Shown here one piece after another: positions 22,422 to 33,093 of a stretch of 39,787 bases of DNA (position 1 is its first letter; every line of letters starts with the position of its first letter). The DNA comes from Verrucomicrobiia bacterium (GTDB lineage Bacteria; Verrucomicrobiota; Verrucomicrobiia; Verrucomicrobiales; Akkermansiaceae), in the NCBI GenBank assembly GCA_030432565.1, contig JAUIGV010000043.1, forward strand, positions 1 to 39,787, in the 5' to 3' direction. The notes under the pieces were generated by a model, which was not told where the DNA came from, made no database searches, and saw only the letters and a program-made list of their open reading frames with translations. Made by a program: the position numbers and the translations under genes.

Positions 22422-22594
22422 GTTACGGGATTTATACGGCAACTTCTCAAAAACGAGGGAAAAATCGCATCGTAATTTGAGCGGAAATCGCCGCGCCCCA
22501 AGAAGCCTCCGCCAACCAGGTTCTCATGGTGCCGCTGGGTCTTTACCAACGAGAGGCCTTTTTCTTGTTTCCAGATCCGGATAAGGATAACTCA

Positions 22595-25500
22595 TTGGAC
22601 CTTGTGAACAGGCTCAAAAACTCTCTGGTTCTTTTATCACTTGGATTTCAACTGGGGATGGTCTCTGATCTTCAATCGAAGGAGATCCGGGTTTCCGCCC
22701 TGGCCGATCCCAACAACGCACAAGTTGGAGAATCCTGGGCCACCCCGACCAATTTAAAAAACGGAATCGCCCTCGCAGAACCAGGAGATGAAATCTGGCT
22801 TTCCTCCGGCACTTATTTGCCAACTTCAGGTACGTCATCGATCGACGCTCGCGCAACATTCCATCTCAAAGGGGGGATCACTTTTTTGGGTGGCTTCTCG
22901 GGCACCGAAGATTCAAAGACTGAGAGGGACCCCTTCCTGAACCGGACGATTCTTAGTGGTGACCTCGGAAACGATGATCTCTATATTGCGTCAAGAGGGT
23001 ATCGTAAAACCGGCTTCAACGCGACCAATGTCTGCACAGTCGTTTCTGCCGAAGAAACCCCGGTAGTCCTGGACGGATTGACCATCACAAGAGGAGCTCC
23101 CGATTTTTTGACAGAGGCTCCCGGTGCCGGCATCCTTTGCATCGGAGGAAAGATTCAGCTGCGTCGTTGTTCTTTTGAAACGAACTATTCATATGCAGCC
23201 AAAGGTGGCGGCGCCCTCAGCCTGACAGCAGGTTCCGAAGCCGTTCTTGAAAACTGCATTTTCCGGGCGAATTCCTGCCGCGGCGACGGCGGTGCCCTTT
23301 ATTCCCTGAACTCCGACCTCTCCCTTTACCAATGCGAGTTCAGTGGAAACCACTCCGATGACGATGGCGGTGCGATCTATTTTCGAAGCGGCACTCTTTC
23401 GATGAATCGGTGCTCAATCGTTGGCAACATGTGCTCCGGCGGAGGAGGTGGAATGTTGCTCTTCCTTGCCGAAGTCAAAATCTCCAACAGTGTATTCTGG
23501 GGAAACAGGGAGGGTCGGTTTTCCAATTTTCAGGACCGTCAAATCATCGCCCCGGGCAATGACATTACCGTCGAAGTTGACCACTGTCTGATCGAGCAGT
23601 CCGGGGGAAGCGCATCGTGGAACCCAAGGTTATCCAACATCACCGACGGAGGAAATAATCTGGATCTTGATCCCGTTTTTGAAATCCCGCCCGTCTTCGC
23701 CAGCGGAGGGCAGTCGTTTGAGCCAGTCTCGTTGAGCGGAGATTTTCGCCCCACGGCCAGCTCTCCCCTCCTTCACCGCGCGTCACCTGCAGAAGACGAA
23801 GAGAACCTTGACATAAGAGGAAGCCAACGGGTCTTCGGAAGCGCCCCTGACATCGGAGCTTCCGAGTGGACCGGGAAATTCACCCCGCCTGTTTCCACCC
23901 TGTTTCAGGTGACGACCGGAGAAGCAAATCGCCGGAGCCTTGAAAATCTCAGGGACCTCTTTTCCTTCGAGGCCTCCAACTTTGTTTTGGCCTCAAACTC
24001 GGACCCCGACCTCGCTACGGTCAGCGTACACCCCACGGATGGAACGCTGTCAATTTCCTGGAGTGATACGAGGCCAACAGGCTTTGCCGATCTGAAATTT
24101 GAGGCCGATTTCGATGGTGTCACGCTTGAGGTCCCATTGCGCCTGGAGCTCATTCCGGGGGTGATCTTCGTTGATCGAAATCAAACGAATGGAGGAGACG
24201 GCCTTTCCTGGGAGACCGCCTTCACGCACCTTCAAGACGCCCTTGATATCATTCAGCCCAATCTTTCCCAATCGATCTGGGTCGCGCAAGGAACCTACTA
24301 TCCCGATGATGGCGCAACAAAAACAGAGAACTCAGCCCTGGAGTCCTTCAATCTCCCGTCCGGAATCTCTCTCCATGGAGGATTCACGGGAACTGAAACC
24401 AATCTTGAACAACGTGATCCAAATGCCCATCCCAGCATCCTCAGCGGCGATTTCCGGGAAGATGACAACAACCATTTTGACATGCGAAACAACTCCGAGC
24501 ACGTCGTTGTCATTGAGAACTCAGCGGAGGTCGTGACCTTGGATGGGTTCACCGTCGAAGCCGGATACGTCAACTCCACCGGACACGGGTGCAATATCAG
24601 AATTGATCAGGCCGAAGCCTTGATCCAAAATATTCGCTTGGGCCGGTCATCCGGCGTCCCTGTTGTCATTGCCGGGTCTCCTAAAACGACCTTCGCTGAT
24701 TGCGATTTCGAATCTCTGGAGATCTACAATGTCGTGCTGGATGTGTATGGGTCCCAATTCACGCTAAGTTCTTCCAGGATTCGTGGACTCACCTACGAAC
24801 CTCTGGGCGTGCTTGGGACTTCATTTTTGCGAATCAACTCCTCGGAGACTACGATTGAAAGCTGCCTCTTTTCAGGAAACAGAACCGGCTATTCCTTGAT
24901 CACAGTCAACCATTCCTCGGCCGGCGATGGATCCCTTCTTTCCTCGAACGTCAACATTCTTAATTCAACTTTCAGCGGCAACGATACCACCCCAAGAGAC
25001 AACGGGCGACCAATAGACACCATCCATCCTCTTATCCGAAACAATGGAAAGGGACTCATTAGCGTGACCGATTCCATCATCTGGAATAACAGCTGGAACA
25101 ATGACACCCTCAGAACAGACACTGTTGTGTCGAACATTGGCGGAGCCAATTCATACTTTGCGAATTGCATCATTGAGAACGCCAAATCAGGGGAAGAATG
25201 GAGTGATGATCTGGGAATCGACGGTGCTTCAAACACTTCGGACCCGCCGCTCTTTATCGATCCCCTCTCGACCGAGGATGCCCCGTCGCCCAACGGAGAC
25301 TATTCTTTGCCTGGTGGATCGCCCGCAGTCGACCGGGGGAGAACCGACGTCCAACTATCCGCAGTTGATGCCTCGGGAGGACAGCGGATCATAGGAGCAG
25401 GGCCAGATTTGGGGGCCATCGAATGGGACGGGAGATTAAGTTCGCCCCGGCGGAATATTTTTCTCTACTCCGGACCACATGGAGCCGGACAAGCCACGAT

Positions 25501-27601
25501 CTCCTTGCGCGACAGCATGGGGATAACACCCGGTTCATTTTCGTTGGAATCAAACGACACGAACGAAATCACCACACAACTCGATGCAACCACCGGGATA
25601 CTGACGTTAACTCTCGCCTCACCCACTTGGACCGGGGTGGCCACCATCGGGTATTCAGCAACCCGCGAAAATGAAGTATTTTCTGGTGAAATCAAAGCCA
25701 CCGTTCTTCCAAAAGTCCTCCATGTGCGAAGTGATATCAACGAAGGAAGACGGGATGGCCTCGACTGGACCAACGCCTTTGCCAGCTTGAAAAACGCTCT
25801 CGCCTCCACGATTGCAAACTCCGGTCAGGAGGTCTGGATCAGCGAAGGAATCTACCGCACGGATGATGGCGAAAACGAAGTTCCCCTCTCACGGGAATCA
25901 CCATTCCGAATTCCAAATGGCATCTCAATCATAGGAGGATTTTCTGGAGTTGAAACCAGCAAAGACCTTCGAGATCCGGAAGCTCACCCATCGATCCTTG
26001 CCCCGCCCTCCGAGCGTCCTCCCATCGGCTCGCCTTCCCGCAGTAGTTTTAACTTTTTGGCGATCATGGAGCCCGGCCCCAGCGCAATGACACTACTCGA
26101 TAGCCTGATCCTCGAAGGAGAACCGAGGAGCGCAGTCCACGCGACCTATGGCCAAATCCTCTCCTGTCAAACAACACGCGCAACCTTCAAAGACTGCACA
26201 TTTCGAATGGCCTCGGAAGAGGGCATTTCCGCCAACTACTCTTTCCTGACTGTCGAACAGTGCCGATTTGAAGATACCACCGGACTCAATGCCTCGGCAA
26301 GCACCGTCACCTTGACGAAATCTCACTTTACCAACGCCAACATCACCCTCTCCGAAGGGTTTGGAATGATCGCCGAGTGTCAATTCTCGGCAGACCCGAC
26401 ACTCGAAATAGGCCCCGCGATCCTGGCAACCCCTGAATCTGATCAAGGGCTCTTGATCAGAAAATGCTCGATCAGCGGGTTCCAGCAAGGACTTGTGGCA
26501 ACATCCAATGCTTCAAATCCTCGTCCTATCGAAGTCATGGAATGTAATTTCACAAACAACTACTCCCTCTTCAATGGCGGCGCAGTTCTCACATTTGGTC
26601 TACCAGCCATCATCCAGAAGTGTCGATTTCAGGGGAATCGTGCAACCAACAATGGTGGCGCGGTCTTCATCGAACACAAAAGCCCGGAGAACCTGCTCGA
26701 AGGATGCCTCTTTGCCGGAAACCGGGCAGACAACAACGGAGGAGCCTTCCAGATAGGTGGCTTCGGACAGGGTGACACGCGGATCGTCAACTGCACCATC
26801 ACCAATAACTCAGCCGGCAGCGAAGGTGGCGCTGCCAACACTGATGGAGGAAATGCCCGCTACGAGGCATGTATCATCACCGGAAACACTTCCCCGGATG
26901 GATTTCAAATTCATCCCCAGGGAAGGGGCTCAAACAGACCCATCATCCGGAATTCAATTGTTGAGGGCACCGGAGGAAGTGCCGCCTGGTCCGAGCCCGA
27001 CCTTCAAGATCAGGGAGGTAATCTGGACCTCCCTCCGCTCTTCCTCTCACCAAACCCGAATCCCGCTCCTTCCGTAGGCGGCAACTATCAATTGCAGCCA
27101 AACTCACCCGCCATCGATCAAGCTTTCGAGCCTTCTGCTCTGTCGTTCGACCTGAACGATTCCCCTCGCCTCTCGGGAGCTTTCGTGGATCTTGGAGCTT
27201 ATGAATTCCAATTTCCCGACATCGTGCCCGAAGGTTTCTCATCCGCATTTCCAAATCTCGATCCAAATGACGATGACAATCAAAACGGCACGACAAACTT
27301 TGCGGAATTTGCCTTTGGAGCGGATCCAACGACTCCCAATCCCCCCTCCTTCTTGCAACTATCTCGAAACAACTCAGTGAGCTTCAGGATCAGAGAGGAC
27401 CCTCAAATCAAAATAAGCTACCAATACAGCCTCGACCTCGCTCACTGGATGCCCCTGCAGGAAACCAACGATTTTGAATTTGGCCCGGATCTGGATGACA
27501 TCGAAGGCATTCAGAGGAAGCTACTCCTAACCGAGGAATTTCGGACGAGAAATCCGGCAGTCTACTTCAGACATCAACCTTTCCCCGCTCCTGCCAACTG
27601 A
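22595..27601 (+). CDS. Giant three-module secreted beta-helix protein (Pmp-like repeats, choice-of-anchor Q)
   Basis: A protein of about 1668 residues built from three homologous modules of 400-500 residues (about 32-428, 522-945 and 1040-1538). Each opens with an IW(L/V)xxGTYxP-like strand, then a GGF(S/T)GTE turn and RDP motif, passes through right-handed beta-helix coils with Pmp-style units (GGAIYF, CxFxGN), and closes with SPAxD...R..G...D(I/L)GAxE, the choice-of-anchor Q signature. Short Ig/cadherin-like linkers separate modules. The tail has DPNDDDNQNGTTNFAEFAFG and YQYSLDLAHW, common at the ends of verrucomicrobial surface proteins. The TTG at 22595 has AAGGA seven bases upstream and gives a good signal peptide; an ATG at 22526 would add 23 residues. 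Adhesion or polysaccharide binding is inferred. Confidence 0.87.
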   Translation: MDLVNRLKNSLVLLSLGFQLGMVSDLQSKEIRVSALADPNNAQVGESWATPTNLKNGIALAEPGDEIWLSSGTYLPTSGTSSIDARATFHLKGGITFLGGFSGTEDSKTERDPFLNRTILSGDLGNDDLYIASRGYRKTGFNATNVCTVVSAEETPVVLDGLTITRGAPDFLTEAPGAGILCIGGKIQLRRCSFETNYSYAAKGGGALSLTAGSEAVLENCIFRANSCRGDGGALYSLNSDLSLYQCEFSGNHSDDDGGAIYFRSGTLSMNRCSIVGNMCSGGGGGMLLFLAEVKISNSVFWGNREGRFSNFQDRQIIAPGNDITVEVDHCLIEQSGGSASWNPRLSNITDGGNNLDLDPVFEIPPVFASGGQSFEPVSLSGDFRPTASSPLLHRASPAEDEENLDIRGSQRVFGSAPDIGASEWTGKFTPPVSTLFQVTTGEANRRSLENLRDLFSFEASNFVLASNSDPDLATVSVHPTDGTLSISWSDTRPTGFADLKFEADFDGVTLEVPLRLELIPGVIFVDRNQTNGGDGLSWETAFTHLQDALDIIQPNLSQSIWVAQGTYYPDDGATKTENSALESFNLPSGISLHGGFTGTETNLEQRDPNAHPSILSGDFREDDNNHFDMRNNSEHVVVIENSAEVVTLDGFTVEAGYVNSTGHGCNIRIDQAEALIQNIRLGRSSGVPVVIAGSPKTTFADCDFESLEIYNVVLDVYGSQFTLSSSRIRGLTYEPLGVLGTSFLRINSSETTIESCLFSGNRTGYSLITVNHSSAGDGSLLSSNVNILNSTFSGNDTTPRDNGRPIDTIHPLIRNNGKGLISVTDSIIWNNSWNNDTLRTDTVVSNIGGANSYFANCIIENAKSGEEWSDDLGIDGASNTSDPPLFIDPLSTEDAPSPNGDYSLPGGSPAVDRGRTDVQLSAVDASGGQRIIGAGPDLGAIEWDGRLSSPRRNIFLYSGPHGAGQATISLRDSMGITPGSFSLESNDTNEITTQLDATTGILTLTLASPTWTGVATIGYSATRENEVFSGEIKATVLPKVLHVRSDINEGRRDGLDWTNAFASLKNALASTIANSGQEVWISEGIYRTDDGENEVPLSRESPFRIPNGISIIGGFSGVETSKDLRDPEAHPSILAPPSERPPIGSPSRSSFNFLAIMEPGPSAMTLLDSLILEGEPRSAVHATYGQILSCQTTRATFKDCTFRMASEEGISANYSFLTVEQCRFEDTTGLNASASTVTLTKSHFTNANITLSEGFGMIAECQFSADPTLEIGPAILATPESDQGLLIRKCSISGFQQGLVATSNASNPRPIEVMECNFTNNYSLFNGGAVLTFGLPAIIQKCRFQGNRATNNGGAVFIEHKSPENLLEGCLFAGNRADNNGGAFQIGGFGQGDTRIVNCTITNNSAGSEGGAANTDGGNARYEACIITGNTSPDGFQIHPQGRGSNRPIIRNSIVEGTGGSAAWSEPDLQDQGGNLDLPPLFLSPNPNPAPSVGGNYQLQPNSPAIDQAFEPSALSFDLNDSPRLSGAFVDLGAYEFQFPDIVPEGFSSAFPNLDPNDDDNQNGTTNFAEFAFGADPTTPNPPSFLQLSRNNSVSFRIREDPQIKISYQYSLDLAHWMPLQETNDFEFGPDLDDIEGIQRKLLLTEEFRTRNPAVYFRHQPFPAPAN

Positions 27602-27657: not shown

Positions 27658-28251
27658 ATTAGCGACGCCATCTTCACTGCCATCGATTTTGAGTCCGCTG
27701 GCACCGCCAAAGGAAAAACCGATTCCCCTGTCCAAATCGGACTCGCAACCTGGTCCGCGGAACAAGACATCCACGACCCGTTCGTCTCCTTCCTGCATTG
27801 CGATCAGGACATCACCTGGGCCGCCCGGAAAGTTCACGGCATCACCACCGAGGATCTCCGCGACGCCCCTTCCCTCCTCTCGCTGTGGCCCGTCCTGAAG
27901 AAGCAACTGGGTCGCGGCCCCATCGTCGCCCATGGACACGGAACCGAGAAACGATTCCTTCGCACCTTTCCCGGCCACTCCTTTGGACCCTGGGTCGACA
28001 CCCTCCAACTCGCACGCGCTGCCTGGCCGGATGAAAAATCCCACTCTCTTGGTGACCTCTGCACTTCGCTGGGGTTGAACGATTTCGGTGAGCACGCACC
28101 TTCGAAAACCTGGCACGATGCCCTTTACGATTCGCTTGCCTCGCTCGCCCTTCTCAAGCACCTTGTTTCGCAACACAATCTTGGCGACTTGCCCGTCGAA
28201 GTTTTGCTCAAGCCGGACACCTCCGTCTGGCACCGATCCCGTCATCAATGA
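27658..28251 (+). CDS. DEDDh-type 3'-5' exonuclease with non-canonical start codon
   Basis: A DnaQ-like exonuclease of about 197 residues. Motif I is AIDFES (Asp10, Glu12), motif II is VAHGHGTEKRFL at residues 90-101, and motif III is the H-x4-D of WHDALYD (His153, Asp158). The KVHGITTEDLRDAPS segment near residue 58 is typical. Motif II has Glu97 where Asp is usual. The frame is open only after a TAG at 27640-27642, and no ATG, GTG or TTG lies before motif I. ATT at 27658 (giving MSDAIFTAIDFES) or ATC at 27652 are the candidate starts, so the boundary is tentative; a damaged start is the alternative. Its stop overlaps the aroB start as ATGA. The role in repair or RNA processing cannot be told. 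Confidence 0.8.
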   Translation: MSDAIFTAIDFESAGTAKGKTDSPVQIGLATWSAEQDIHDPFVSFLHCDQDITWAARKVHGITTEDLRDAPSLLSLWPVLKKQLGRGPIVAHGHGTEKRFLRTFPGHSFGPWVDTLQLARAAWPDEKSHSLGDLCTSLGLNDFGEHAPSKTWHDALYDSLASLALLKHLVSQHNLGDLPVEVLLKPDTSVWHRSRHQ

Positions 28252-29327
28252 ATACCGTTCACGTCAATCTAGGTTCCCGGTCTTACGACATCCTCGTTGC
28301 TCCCGGTCTGCTCGCTGAAACCGGCTCGCGCATTCAGGCCGCCGGACTCAGCGGAATGGCCGCCATCATCACCGACAGCAATGTCGCCCCGCATTTTCTC
28401 GAACAAGTCAAAACCTCGCTCCTCGACCGGGGATACAATTTCTCTTCCCACATCTTCCCTGCCGGCGAGGCCTCGAAATCGCTGACGGTGGTTGAGAGCC
28501 TAAGCCGTGAACTCATCCAGGCCGGGCACAATCGCTCCTCATTCGTCGTGGCCCTTGGCGGGGGTGTTACCGGAGATCTTGCGGGCTTTGTCGCCTCCAT
28601 TTTCTATCGCGGCGTCCCCTTCGTCCAGATCCCCACCACCATCGTCTCGCAAGTCGACTCGGCGGTCGGAGGGAAAACCGGTGTCAATGCACCCGAGGGG
28701 AAAAACCTCATTGGCGCTTTTCACCAACCCCGGTTGGTCCTCATCGACCCGGAGACCCTCCTCACCCTTCCTGGTCGCGAATTCAGGGAAGGCTTCGCCG
28801 AAGTCATCAAACATGCCGCCATTCGCGATGAAGCGATGTTTGCCGACCTCGAAGCGCTCGATCCTCTGAATCAAACAGTTCCCTCCGAATTGATCGCCCG
28901 CAACGTCGCCATCAAAGCCCGCGTGGTCGAAGAAGATGAACAGGAAACCTCCGGAACGCGAGCCCTCCTTAACTTCGGCCACACCATTGGCCATGGCATC
29001 GAGGCCTCGGTCCCTTATGGCACCCTCCTTCATGGCGAAGCAATCTCGCTCGGGATCCGCGCCGCGCTGATGCTCTCGGAGAAACATGCCGGCCTCGCTC
29101 CCGAAGCCAGCCAACGCATTCTCGATCTCCTCACTCACTTCCAACTTCCACTCAAACTCAGCGATGAGATCTCGACCGATCTCGTCATGGAAAAACTTAT
29201 GCGGGACAAAAAATTCTCCGGCGGAAAACGCACCTTCGTCCTCCTCGACCGCCCGGGCAACGGCATCACCTGCAGCACCATCCCGCTTGAGGACATCGCC
29301 CCTACCATCAACTCCCTTCGCTCATGA
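28248..29327 (+). CDS. aroB: 3-dehydroquinate synthase
   Basis: Second enzyme of the shikimate pathway; converts 3-deoxy-D-arabino-heptulosonate 7-phosphate to 3-dehydroquinate using NAD and a divalent metal. The 359-residue length is standard. The NAD-binding GGGVTGDLAGFVAS lies near residue 104, followed by RGVPFVQIPTTIVSQVDSAVGGKTGVN. Metal ligands are the Glu of EGFAEVIKHA near 182, the His of NFGHTIGHGIEA near 245, and the His of LLHGEAIS near 262. The start overlaps the exonuclease stop and its stop overlaps the start of the MBL-fold gene, both as ATGA, so three genes are probably translated in series. No other aromatic-pathway gene is in the window. Confidence 0.97.
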   Translation: MNTVHVNLGSRSYDILVAPGLLAETGSRIQAAGLSGMAAIITDSNVAPHFLEQVKTSLLDRGYNFSSHIFPAGEASKSLTVVESLSRELIQAGHNRSSFVVALGGGVTGDLAGFVASIFYRGVPFVQIPTTIVSQVDSAVGGKTGVNAPEGKNLIGAFHQPRLVLIDPETLLTLPGREFREGFAEVIKHAAIRDEAMFADLEALDPLNQTVPSELIARNVAIKARVVEEDEQETSGTRALLNFGHTIGHGIEASVPYGTLLHGEAISLGIRAALMLSEKHAGLAPEASQRILDLLTHFQLPLKLSDEISTDLVMEKLMRDKKFSGGKRTFVLLDRPGNGITCSTIPLEDIAPTINSLRS

Positions 29328-29941
29328 ACCTTCTCATCCACACCGGCGGAGTCTTCCAGACCAACGGCTATATTCTTGCAAACGATGATGGCACCTGCAT
29401 CGTCATCGACGCTCCCGCTGAAATTGCCGGTTTTCTGGCTCAAAACTCCCTCACGCCCACCCACCTTCTGCTCACCCACCAACACCTTGATCACATCGAG
29501 GATGCCGCGAAATTAAGGGAAGCCGGAGCCAAGGTGGTGGCCTTTCAGGACTACGCACCGGAAATCATCATGGAAAAGCGCCTCCAGGAAATGGGCCTCC
29601 CGGTGCAAGCAATTCCCTTTGAGGTGGACGAAGTAATCGGAGCGGGCCCGACCTATAAGATCGCCGGCCACACCTTCGAAATCGCCCACGTCCCGGGGCA
29701 CTCGCCGGACTCGATTTCCTTCCACCTGCCCGCGGAATCCTTCCTCTTTGCCGGGGATGCCTTGTTTAATGGGAGCATTGGACGCACCGACCTCCCCGGA
29801 GGGAATCACGAGCAACTCCTCGACTCCATCCGCCAAAACCTCTACTGTCTGCCCGACGAAACGGCAGTTTTGCCCGGCCACGGTCCCCGGACCAGCATTG
29901 GCCGGGAGAAACAAAGCAACCCATTTTGCCCCAACACCTAA
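29324..29941 (+). CDS. MBL-fold metallohydrolase (glyoxalase II-like)
   Basis: A 205-residue metallo-beta-lactamase-fold hydrolase of the YcbL/glyoxalase II-like branch. The metal site is clear: THQHLDH at about residues 51-57 (the HxHxDH signature), the His of VPGHSPDS near 125, the Asp of FAGDALF near 144, and the His of LPGHGPRTSIGREKQSNPF near 187, the last stretch being very typical of the YcbL group. No additional domain is present. Translation is coupled to aroB by an ATGA overlap. Hydrolysis of a thioester such as S-lactoylglutathione is possible, but the substrate is not determined by the sequence. Confidence 0.9.
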   Translation: MNLLIHTGGVFQTNGYILANDDGTCIVIDAPAEIAGFLAQNSLTPTHLLLTHQHLDHIEDAAKLREAGAKVVAFQDYAPEIIMEKRLQEMGLPVQAIPFEVDEVIGAGPTYKIAGHTFEIAHVPGHSPDSISFHLPAESFLFAGDALFNGSIGRTDLPGGNHEQLLDSIRQNLYCLPDETAVLPGHGPRTSIGREKQSNPFCPNT

Positions 29942-29953
29942 ACGACCTACACC

Positions 29954-30526
29954 ATGACCCGACGCCTAATTCTATCCTTCCTCGCCTTCGCGATGGTCAC
30001 GCCAAGTGCCCTTGCGATGGGAAAACGCCCTGAAAAAAATCAACTCACCTTTCACCTCCAGGGACACGTCTCGGACGGGCCAAAAATGGTTTTCCCCATC
30101 CCCATGGGGAACAAAAAGCGCTTCTTCCGGAAAAGCCCGGTCACCTTCACCAAGGAAATCGTTTCCTTGAAACACTTCATGACCGAGGACGGCACCTACG
30201 GCGCAACCTTCTCTTTTGATAAAGCCGCGGCCGGACGAATCGCAGCCATCACCACCAGTAATCAAGACAAGTGGCTTGTCGCCATGCTCAACGGACGCCC
30301 GGTTGACGCCGTCTTCATCGACAAGCCGATTCGCGACGGAAGGCTCGTCGTTTGGCGCGGAATCAAACAGGTCGAGATCATCCGTTTTGAATACGCCATG
30401 CCCATCACCGGGGAAACCACCAAACAGTGGAAAGAGCGAATCAAAGGTCACGAAGAACAGCGCAAAGCTGCCAAAAAGGCGGCAATCGAAGCTCAAAAAG
30501 AACGGAACCGCCGCCGAAACAACTAA
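29954..30526 (+). CDS. Exported protein with SecD-P1-head-like domain and basic tail
   Basis: A 190-residue protein not assigned to a named family. Residues 1-21 are a signal peptide (SFLAFAMVTPSALA). Residues about 84-138 resemble the P1 head subdomain of SecD/SecF: ATFSFDKAAAGRIAAITTS, then KWLVAMLNGRPVDAVFIDKPI and DGRLVVWRGI, matching the pattern of a folded head with a conserved N-G-x-P-V-x-A motif. This is a fold-level resemblance only. The last 40 residues are rich in Lys, Arg, Gln and Ala and should be helical. It sits 12 bases after the MBL gene and two bases before the M23 peptidase gene, so it is likely in the same transcript. Function unknown. Confidence 0.78.
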   Translation: MTRRLILSFLAFAMVTPSALAMGKRPEKNQLTFHLQGHVSDGPKMVFPIPMGNKKRFFRKSPVTFTKEIVSLKHFMTEDGTYGATFSFDKAAAGRIAAITTSNQDKWLVAMLNGRPVDAVFIDKPIRDGRLVVWRGIKQVEIIRFEYAMPITGETTKQWKERIKGHEEQRKAAKKAAIEAQKERNRRRNN

Positions 30527-30528
30527 CG

Positions 30529-31581
30529 ATGAAATTGCTCGGGATCCTCCTGCTCCTTCCTCTGGCCCTGAAAGCCGCCGAACCGCTCAAGCTGGTTCTC
30601 CCCACTGACAACCGGGCCATTTTTGACGGCAAGCCCGAGGACTTCTACATGTATGTCCTCCGCTACTCCGGCGACAAGGCCTCCCAACACTGGACCGCCG
30701 GACAGTACGGCTTTGTTCGTACCATTATTGACACCGAAAAAGAGGGCCCGATCGCCACGAAGTTTCACGAAGGTCTCGACATCAAGCCCACGAAACGGGA
30801 TCGCAGCGGAAACCCTCTCGATGAGGTCCGCGCCATTGCGGACGGCGAAGTTGTTCACGTCAACAACAACTCCGGGGGAAGCAGCTACGGTAAATATCTC
30901 GTCATCAAACACGACTGGGACTGCGGCCCTTTTTTCAGCCTTTATGCCCACCTTTCACGGGTGGATGTCACGGTCGGAGACAAAGTGATTGGGGGCTTTC
31001 CGGTCGCCATCATGGGATACACCGGAGCCGGAATCAACCGCACCCGGGCCCACCTCCACCTGGAACTCTGCATGCTCTCAACTGAAAATTTCGCCGACTG
31101 GATCGGAGCGAAGACAGCCCACGGAATCTACGACGGACGGAATCTCATCGGCGTGGACGTTGCCTCCCTCTTTCTCGCCACCAAGGACAGCAACAACGTG
31201 ACAATGCCCGGATTCCTTGCGAGCGCCTCGCCTTACTTCAAGGTCGCAATTCCCCGAAAAGATGAGCTGGAAATCACCAAACGCTATCCCTGGCTCAAGA
31301 AGGGCGATCACAGCGCCGGGAGCCCGTCCCTCGAAATCGCCTTCACCGATTCAGGGATTCCGCTTTCCGTTGTCCCCAGCCACCGCGAGGTGACGAAAGC
31401 TACCATCACCTTCGTTCGCACCACCCGCTCAAAACACGAATATTACACCCGGGGACGTCTCACCGGAACCGGTCGCAAGGCCAGTCTCACCCGGAACGGG
31501 CGTAAATTTGTGGCACTTTTCACCAACGAATACACAAAGCCAGACCCAACCCCTACCACCGAAGAATCCGATGACTCCTGA
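30529..31581 (+). CDS. Exported M23 (LytM-type) metallopeptidase
   Basis: A 350-residue exported peptidase that probably cuts peptidoglycan cross-links or other wall peptides. The signal peptide MKLLGILLLLPLALKA marks the ATG at 30529, two bases after the preceding stop. The M23 catalytic residues are all present: His80 and Asp84 in FHEGLDI, His141 in LYAHLS, and the HLH of AHLHLEL (His175, His177). About 170 residues follow the peptidase core, with no recognised domain but strand-like content, and end in a Thr/Pro/Asp/Ser-rich tail. The last codons overlap the start of the RidA gene by 11 bases. An active enzyme is expected rather than a degenerate regulator because the zinc ligands are intact. 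Confidence 0.92.
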   Translation: MKLLGILLLLPLALKAAEPLKLVLPTDNRAIFDGKPEDFYMYVLRYSGDKASQHWTAGQYGFVRTIIDTEKEGPIATKFHEGLDIKPTKRDRSGNPLDEVRAIADGEVVHVNNNSGGSSYGKYLVIKHDWDCGPFFSLYAHLSRVDVTVGDKVIGGFPVAIMGYTGAGINRTRAHLHLELCMLSTENFADWIGAKTAHGIYDGRNLIGVDVASLFLATKDSNNVTMPGFLASASPYFKVAIPRKDELEITKRYPWLKKGDHSAGSPSLEIAFTDSGIPLSVVPSHREVTKATITFVRTTRSKHEYYTRGRLTGTGRKASLTRNGRKFVALFTNEYTKPDPTPTTEESDDS

Positions 31582-32029
31582 AGAAAAGCTGGCCTCGCTT
31601 GGCCTCGAACTCCCCGAAGTCGCCACTCCTCTTGGCTCTTATCTGAATGCCAGCCGTTCCGGAAACCTTCTCCACATTTCAGGAGGACTCCCCATCATGG
31701 GCGATGAGAAGTATCTTGGCAAAGTGCCGACCCAATGCAGTGTCGAGGACGCCAACAAGGCCGCCCGGCTAGCCGTCATTACTCGCCTCGCGGTCATCAA
31801 GTCGGAGCTTGGTTCACTCGATCAGGTGGCCCGCGTTGTTTCGGTCTCCGGCTTTGTGAATGCCGCACCCGATTTCACCGACCATCCCCAGGTGGTCAAC
31901 GGGGCCTCCGACCTTCTCGTGGAAGTCTTCGGTGAAATTGGAAAGCACTCCCGCACTGCCGTTGGCTGCTCCTCTTTGCCTCTCGGGGTTGCGGTTGAGG
32001 TGAGCCTCGTCGTTGAGGTAAAATCTTAA
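31571..32029 (+). CDS. RidA/YjgF-family enamine-imine deaminase-like protein
   Basis: A 152-residue RidA-superfamily protein. RidA enzymes hydrolyse reactive 2-aminoacrylate and related imines released by PLP enzymes. The hallmark HSRTAVGCSSLPLGVAVEV near the C-terminus contains the Arg that binds the substrate carboxylate, and SGNLLHISGGLPIMG in the N-terminal third is the usual strand pair. The product is longer than the 128-residue E. coli RidA and fits the YjgH/RidA-like subgroup. It overlaps the M23 gene by 11 bases and is five bases before mnmH. The proximity to the PLP aminotransferase at 33907 is suggestive but they are on opposite strands. Confidence 0.9.
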   Translation: MTPEEKLASLGLELPEVATPLGSYLNASRSGNLLHISGGLPIMGDEKYLGKVPTQCSVEDANKAARLAVITRLAVIKSELGSLDQVARVVSVSGFVNAAPDFTDHPQVVNGASDLLVEVFGEIGKHSRTAVGCSSLPLGVAVEVSLVVEVKS

Positions 32030-32034
32030 TCTGT

Positions 32035-33093
32035 ATGGAACTGCCCGAGCGCGTCACCCCTCCGTTTTCCCTGAACGAATTCACGGAAATTATTGACGTT
32101 CGCTCACCTGCCGAGTTCGAGATCGATCACATCCCCGGTGCCATCAATCTGCCGGTCTTGGATGATCAGGAACGTCACGAAGTTGGACTTCTTCACGCCC
32201 GGAACCCTTACCAGGCGCGGCGACTTGGAGCGACCTTGATCACGAAAAACATCCACCGTCACCTGGAGGGACCGCTCGCCGAAACCCCCAACTCGTTTGC
32301 CCCGCTCGTCTACTGCTGGCGAGGCAATCTACGATCCAGCTCAATGGCCCTGATCTTCCGGGCCATCGGCTGGAGGTCCCGCGTCCTGGAAGGAGGCTAC
32401 AAGGCCTGGCGAAAATTCCTCATTGCCGATCTTGATCCACTCATCGGTGCCGGAAAACCCGAGCTCATCATTCTCGGGGGAATGACCGGATGCGGAAAAA
32501 CCCGCCTGCTTCATGAACTGCATCGCCAGGGAGCCCAAATTCTGGACCTCGAGGGACTCGCCAACCACAAAGGATCAATCCTGGGCAATGCTCCCGACAG
32601 TCCGCAGCCAGGTCAAAAGCGCTTTGAGTCGCAGCTTTGGGAAGCATTCCAAAGGTTCGATCCCGAGAGACCTGTTTTCACCGAGGCCGAGTCCAATCGC
32701 ATTGGCCGCCTGCAATGTCCCCCGCCCTTGTGGAAACGACTGGGTGAAGGAAAAGTCGTCCTGCTTGAACTCCCCCTTCACGAACGGGGTAAATTGCTTG
32801 CGCGTGAATACGAACACTTCATTTCAAATCCCCAATCGCTCAAGGACACCCTGGACGGCTTGCGAAGACTACGCGGGCATGAGCAGGTTGACGAATGGCA
32901 CCGTCAAATTGATGCCAGTGATTGGCCGGCCTTTCTCGAGTCAATTCTCGTGAAGCACTACGATCTTTGCTATCGGCAACCCGGGTCGGAGGACTCGATT
33001 TATGCCGAACCCTCTGCCACGATTACGATTTCAAGTGCTGCCGACAGCGACTACGCAATCGCGGCAGCCGATCTGATCGCCAAGCACTCGTGA
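32035..33093 (+). CDS. mnmH: tRNA 2-selenouridine synthase MnmH (SelU/YbbB)
   Basis: Enzyme that replaces sulphur with selenium at the wobble 2-thiouridine of tRNAs for Lys, Glu and Gln, via a geranylated intermediate, using selenophosphate. The 352-residue length is typical. Residues 1-130 form a rhodanese domain with DVRSPAEFEIDHIPGAINLPVL and the active-site Cys94 in YCWRGN. Residues 140-352 are a P-loop domain with Walker A GMTGCGKT (149-156) and the family signature DLEGLANHKGSILG. The residue after CWRG is Asn, where Gly is usual. It starts five bases after the RidA stop and its stop overlaps the GTG start of the TatD gene. No selD is in the window. Confidence 0.93.
   Translation: MELPERVTPPFSLNEFTEIIDVRSPAEFEIDHIPGAINLPVLDDQERHEVGLLHARNPYQARRLGATLITKNIHRHLEGPLAETPNSFAPLVYCWRGNLRSSSMALIFRAIGWRSRVLEGGYKAWRKFLIADLDPLIGAGKPELIILGGMTGCGKTRLLHELHRQGAQILDLEGLANHKGSILGNAPDSPQPGQKRFESQLWEAFQRFDPERPVFTEAESNRIGRLQCPPPLWKRLGEGKVVLLELPLHERGKLLAREYEHFISNPQSLKDTLDGLRRLRGHEQVDEWHRQIDASDWPAFLESILVKHYDLCYRQPGSEDSIYAEPSATITISSAADSDYAIAAADLIAKHS

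Follow-up and report, generated by a model that had tools for sequence, protein, structure and literature searches.

Why should a bacterium that possesses an intact SecDF encode, as a separate small protein beside an M23 peptidase, what appears to be the head of SecD without the rest of it? This is the question raised by a gene at positions 29954..30526 (+ strand) of the window, by which we mean the whole stretch of 39,787 nucleotides that was analysed. According to the ORF list the gene encodes 190 amino acids, its coordinates including the stop codon. The first-pass annotation of this stretch had described the product as an exported protein with no transmembrane core, with a SecD P1-head pattern at residues 84-138 and a basic helical C-terminus. 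As far as sequence and structure model allow us to say, it is indeed a detached SecD P1 head, predicted to be exported to the periplasm.

The N-terminus of the protein looks like a signal peptide, with a basic start, a hydrophobic stretch and the residues ALA before M22. We assign the signal peptide to residues 1-21 (29954..30016, + strand) on the basis of hydropathy, sequence and homologues, and the cleavage site is placed from the ALA motif. Beyond residue 22 no stretch reaches the hydrophobicity of a membrane helix (the maximum over 19 residues on the Kyte-Doolittle scale is 0.79), in agreement with the earlier description of an exported protein lacking a transmembrane core. A Tat signal was considered and rejected, as the TRR start is not retained in homologues; an ordinary Sec signal is assumed. 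By a simple pattern, a lipobox-like start is present in 17 of the 48 class-level members, versus 2 of the 43 order-level members, and some lone heads are probably lipoproteins. At the other end, residues 151-190 are basic (pI 10.7) and residues 156-189 (30419..30520, + strand) are helical in the model, so this part of the description holds as well; the helix is assigned on the model and on composition, and the tail varies widely among homologues.

The gene seems to be well kept. When the protein is compared with five relatives, dN is 0.08-0.10 at a dS of 1.0-1.3, which is near saturation; hence purifying selection maintains it. It was matched in 56 of the 58 genomes searched, its own included, and the two genomes with no match are 65 and 69% complete. 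Within its own genome the search returned the protein itself as the sole match, and a viral library contained no match at E<=0.001. A promoter and terminator scan gave 2 and 6 sites versus shuffle means of 1.0 and 5.1, and was left unused.

Is it really a P1 head? The domain is already known as Pfam family PF22599 (SecDF_P1_head), and there are lone members that score above its cut-off. The window protein matches this family and no other up to an E-value of 1, with E 0.019 and 15.3 bits as a single sequence, which is below the gathering cut-off of 27 bits. Going by sequence, we file it as a diverged homologue of PF22599 and do not give it the status of a curated member. Of the 43 members of the family, which include the window protein, 24 match PF22599 at E<=0.5, the best of them at E 5.8e-5. 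The AlphaFold2 model, made from a 43-row alignment, has a mean pLDDT of 94.6. When it is compared with the PDB by Foldseek, the first nine rows are all SecDF or holo-translocon structures (best E 9.4e-7) and the tenth row has an E-value of 0.23; the TM-score on the query is 0.43 for the best row and 0.43-0.45 for the best seven. VIA-align superimposes model residues 29-150 on 3aqo with Z 11.8 and an rmsd of 3.7 over 113 residues at 18% identity. In searches of the PDB, Thermus SecDF is found by profile A1 at E 8.7e-4, and by the broader profile A3, which consists of 48 rows of the head family with no SecDF row among them, at E 6e-14 among 177635 PDB sequences. Compared by hhalign with 33 SecDF-like frames over their head region, A3 gives a probability of 98.0 and A1 one of 90.6. 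A reversed-frame control of the iterated family profile produced a single hit (E 0.02) among 6932 frames.

A sceptical reader could point to the single-sequence score, well under the Pfam cut-off, and to the moderate Foldseek TM-scores, and suggest that this is a small alpha/beta protein with a chance resemblance to SecD. We find that hardly credible in view of the A3 match to SecDF, the hhalign probability of 98.0 and the nine leading Foldseek rows, in which nothing other than SecDF and holo-translocon structures appears. In our opinion the P1-head identity predicted from sequence and model is firm, because the structure matches by Foldseek and VIA-align, the profile and hhalign matches and the reversed-frame control all bear it out.

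The modelled fold was the point on which the first-pass annotation had proposed that its reading be checked; it proved to match the P1 head of SecDF, and the profiles agree. The motif it had noticed is also present, with ATFSF at residues 84-88 and LNGRPVDAVFIDKPI at residues 112-126, but the domain had been drawn too short. Residues 84-138 had to be given up as the whole domain, since the match spans about residues 27-150 (30032..30403, + strand), roughly twice that range, as judged from the structure model, structure comparison and profile searches. With the P1 head of SecD and SecDF (PF22599; PDB 3aqo, 5yhf, 5xan) the protein shares the fold over those 113 residues, the periplasmic side and a stretch around the pattern T-x-x-N ... 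G-R ... I. Unlike SecD and SecDF, it is free-standing, with a signal peptide of its own and with neither P1 base nor membrane core. No Pfam match to the SecD/SecF membrane core or to the P1 base (SecD_1st, PF21760) was found in it, and no hydrophobic segment follows the signal peptide. The genome's own SecDF, encoded elsewhere, is intact, with P1 head, P1 base (SecD_1st) and SecD/SecF core. Since the base and the membrane core are missing from the lone protein and an intact SecDF exists elsewhere in the genome, the lone protein, as its sequence reads, is no SecD. The idea that it substitutes for a headless SecDF was likewise abandoned, because the SecDF of this genome retains its head.

According to PMC11470409 and PMC9508474, the P1 head is the polypeptide-holding part of SecD, and PMC8669966 marks a hydrophobic pocket in the SecD head. 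Given this homology, it would be natural to think of a general helper of the Sec system, a soluble head which, on behalf of many exported proteins, catches chains as they leave the translocon or adds to SecDF, with the M23 peptidase and the BsuPI-domain protein discussed below as its clients. Some lineages do keep the head without the M23 subfamily, as such a helper would allow. Moreover, the same genome encodes a second lone head (L135:4189-4743 on contig C49; 184 aa, PF22599 at 50.3 bits), which is situated directly upstream of secDF (L135:4771-7407) and shares 47% identity with the head of SecDF itself. We nevertheless regard a Sec helper as unlikely: SecDF here already has a head, the head gene of the window is not near sec genes, and the lone protein, lacking base and membrane core, has no apparent link to the proton motive force. 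The two lone heads are alike in being small P1-head proteins with a signal-like start, but the second is a nearer copy of the SecDF head, whereas the window protein has diverged much further and stands beside an M23 gene. As a side observation, short frames similar to the second lone head occur just before secDF in two other genomes (G021 and G011), and shorter pieces occur in three more (G003, G004 and G006).

We now turn to the neighbours. The head gene belongs to a run of genes on one strand, namely aroB, a hydrolase gene, the head gene, the M23 gene, a YjgF-family gene, mnmH and tatD. The 3-dehydroquinate synthase gene (aroB, 28248..29327, + strand) overlaps that of a metallo-beta-lactamase-fold hydrolase (mbl, 29324..29941, + strand), which is 12 nt upstream of the head gene. 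On the other side, the start of the YjgF/Rid-family gene (31571..32029, + strand) overlaps the stop of the M23 gene, and mnmH follows (tRNA 2-selenouridine synthase, a rhodanese gene; 32035-33093, + strand), scoring above the NCBIfam cut-off. Further upstream in the window, positions 22526-27601 encode a 1691-aa protein with matches to choice-of-anchor Q and polymorphic outer membrane protein repeats. We rejected a fixed larger operon, as aroB and mbl adjoin the head gene in near relatives only; outside these the two flanking genes are replaced, while M23 stays. The M23 peptidase reported earlier as a neighbour is real, being encoded 2 nt downstream of the head gene (30529..31581, + strand; 350 aa), and is widely conserved across the class in this downstream position. 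A check of conserved synteny had been suggested with M23 or sec genes alike, and it turns out in favour of the former but not of the latter, for no sec gene is found among the neighbours of the lone-head gene.

The M23 neighbour has a signal-like start and passes the PF01551 cut-off comfortably (57.5 versus 28.7 bits); its M23 domain comprises residues 79-180 (30763..31068, + strand), according to Pfam and an alignment of 22 homologues. The motifs HxxxD, AH and HxH, which we take to be the active-site motif of M23 enzymes, are all present. All 22 aligned homologues have the same active-site residues (H80, D84, H141, H175 and H177), so that the protein should be catalytically intact and an active enzyme. 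The structure predicted for it (pLDDT 88.3) partially matches LytM/M23 structures, DipM, ShyA and Csd2 among them, with TM-scores on the query of 0.22-0.30. Among 28 order-level loci, M23 comes directly after the head gene in 22, lies about 2.4 kb off in one and in five is missing from the stretch that was fetched; four of these five genomes have it elsewhere and one has none at E<=1e-25.

For the class as a whole we drew 141 genomes from 47 families and 83 genera. The draw is uneven, one genus giving many genomes, hence the counts by family and genus. A head in a short frame was found in 110 of the 141 genomes, a few of these frames being possibly SecDF pieces or situated at contig ends; frames longer than 560 aa were dropped, matches were listed up to an E-value of about 6e-11, and frames were read from stop to stop, so that gene starts are approximate. 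The M23 subfamily is present at E<=1e-25 in 104 genomes. Both are found in 92, the head only in 18, M23 only in 12 and neither in 19. The head gene is directly upstream of M23 on the same strand in 72 of the 92 (26 families, 42 genera) and apart from it in the other 20; here it should be borne in mind that A3 includes eight rows first found upstream of M23, which biases it to finding heads there, and that those eight came from a profile that did not contain them. An earlier count with a narrower profile had yielded 52 neighbouring pairs. Upstream DNA was taken for 27 of the 30 genomes which that count had left with M23 only, and in 15 of these 27 seemingly head-less genomes a diverged head proved to be encoded just upstream of M23; the profile that found them held neither SecDF nor any of the 15 loci. 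By genus, both are present in 54, the head only in 12, M23 only in 11 and neither in six (Fisher p 0.18). Thus the order of head and M23 is strongly conserved, yet the pair is not obligate, because the co-occurrence by genus is not significant and genomes with a single one of the genes exist. An unsystematic look at the loci examined revealed no fusion of head and M23.

The head has another frequent neighbour. A gene for a BsuPI-domain protein, just upstream of the head gene on the opposite strand, forms a cluster in 13 loci; a profile made from these matches in 20 class-level loci, and all 20 aligned members match PF12690. In the first part of the BsuPI model, A4, two rows contribute long antisense stretches; only matches reaching its BsuPI part were counted (51 genomes), and first-part-only matches were dropped. 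In the 141-genome draw the divergent BsuPI gene adjoins the head in 27 of the 110 head-bearing genomes, distributed as 15 of the 18 with the head only, eight of the 20 in which head and M23 are separated, and four of the 72 with neighbouring pairs; in other words, it is the neighbour in 23 of the 38 head genomes where M23 does not follow directly. In four of the 12 M23-only genomes (G065, G058, G074 and G111) a BsuPI gene is near M23 on the other strand, with no head detected. Inspection by eye of 25 loci without an adjacent M23 showed no other partner common across families. To judge from these arrangements, the three genes seem to belong to a single locus which different lineages have taken apart in different ways. 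M23 is not the only associate of the head, since the BsuPI gene adjoins it in most head-only genomes and in eight of those where the two are apart.

It may be argued from this that the main partner of the head is not M23 at all but the BsuPI protein, peptidoglycan, a metabolite or other envelope proteins, the linkage to M23 reflecting history or shared expression. The BsuPI neighbours, the non-significant co-occurrence by genus and the heads which occur elsewhere with a kinase, with large proteins, with a GMC oxidoreductase set or with a GreA-domain neighbour are all in keeping with such a view. Still, we think it somewhat unlikely, given that head and M23 have stayed in order in 26 families despite the turnover of other neighbours, which would be hard to keep without selection for coupling. 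As for the BsuPI protein in particular, a search of the genome of the window gave no match to PF12690 at E<=0.01, so that within the reach of this search it is excluded as the partner there.

Our preferred reading, which we put a little short of an even chance, is that the head is a periplasmic binding module which works for the neighbouring M23 peptidase as part of a small envelope locus. Judged by the genes around it, a role in the envelope together with the peptidase is more likely than one in Sec, and it is because of gene order that we infer that the head would hold, place or control M23. The lone head may have kept the ability to hold a polypeptide; without base and motor it could hold but not pull. 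It would bind the product of the adjacent M23 gene, as a chaperone, regulator or targeting factor, and might thereby influence the site or the timing of peptidoglycan cleavage. The BsuPI-domain protein encoded at this locus in sister lineages may be a further part of the set, and lipoprotein-like heads would act from a membrane. Counted against this reading are the 20 of 92 genomes with the two genes apart, the 18 and 12 genomes with one of them only, the Fisher p of 0.18 and the existence of BsuPI as an alternative neighbour.

Enzymes of the LytM/M23 fold do have partner proteins, as in FtsEX-EnvC-amidase. There, as here, envelope proteins are paired with M23-fold proteins; however, those partners are not known to be P1 heads, and the M23 protein of the present locus has an intact active site. 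In the open-licence literature we found neither a lone SecD P1 head described nor its pairing with M23. If the proposal is true, envelope biology has put part of the Sec motor to a new use as a free binding domain, and in a large bacterial class the M23 endopeptidases have an associate that had not been described. With a head that is soluble by nature, one could moreover study how the SecD head binds chains free of membranes. More broadly, and more tentatively, the SecD P1 head of Verrucomicrobiota could be a portable extracytoplasmic binding module which has come off the export motor and has joined various partners (M23, the BsuPI protein, a GMC dehydrogenase set, a kinase, or as a copy beside secDF); the window protein would then be the most widespread form seen, placed in a class-wide envelope locus and controlling an M23 endopeptidase.

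With the family profile, short heads encoded on their own turn up in other classes of the phylum too. Three lone heads of another class (L207, L208 and L209) adjoin a gene of 721-731 codons, and the product of the L207 neighbour, the sole one of the three that was scanned, has C-terminal GreA/GreB domains. In one family a second head (L211:3965-4474, 91 bits to PF22599) is flanked by genes for a GMC oxidoreductase and for gluconate dehydrogenase subunit 3, as checked with Pfam, and L212:3382-4110 resembles this setting by sequence. A large frame at L215:2219-6001 (- strand) combines a protein kinase domain with two P1 heads near the C-terminus (PF22599, 159 bits), and three further large frames contain one P1 head each.
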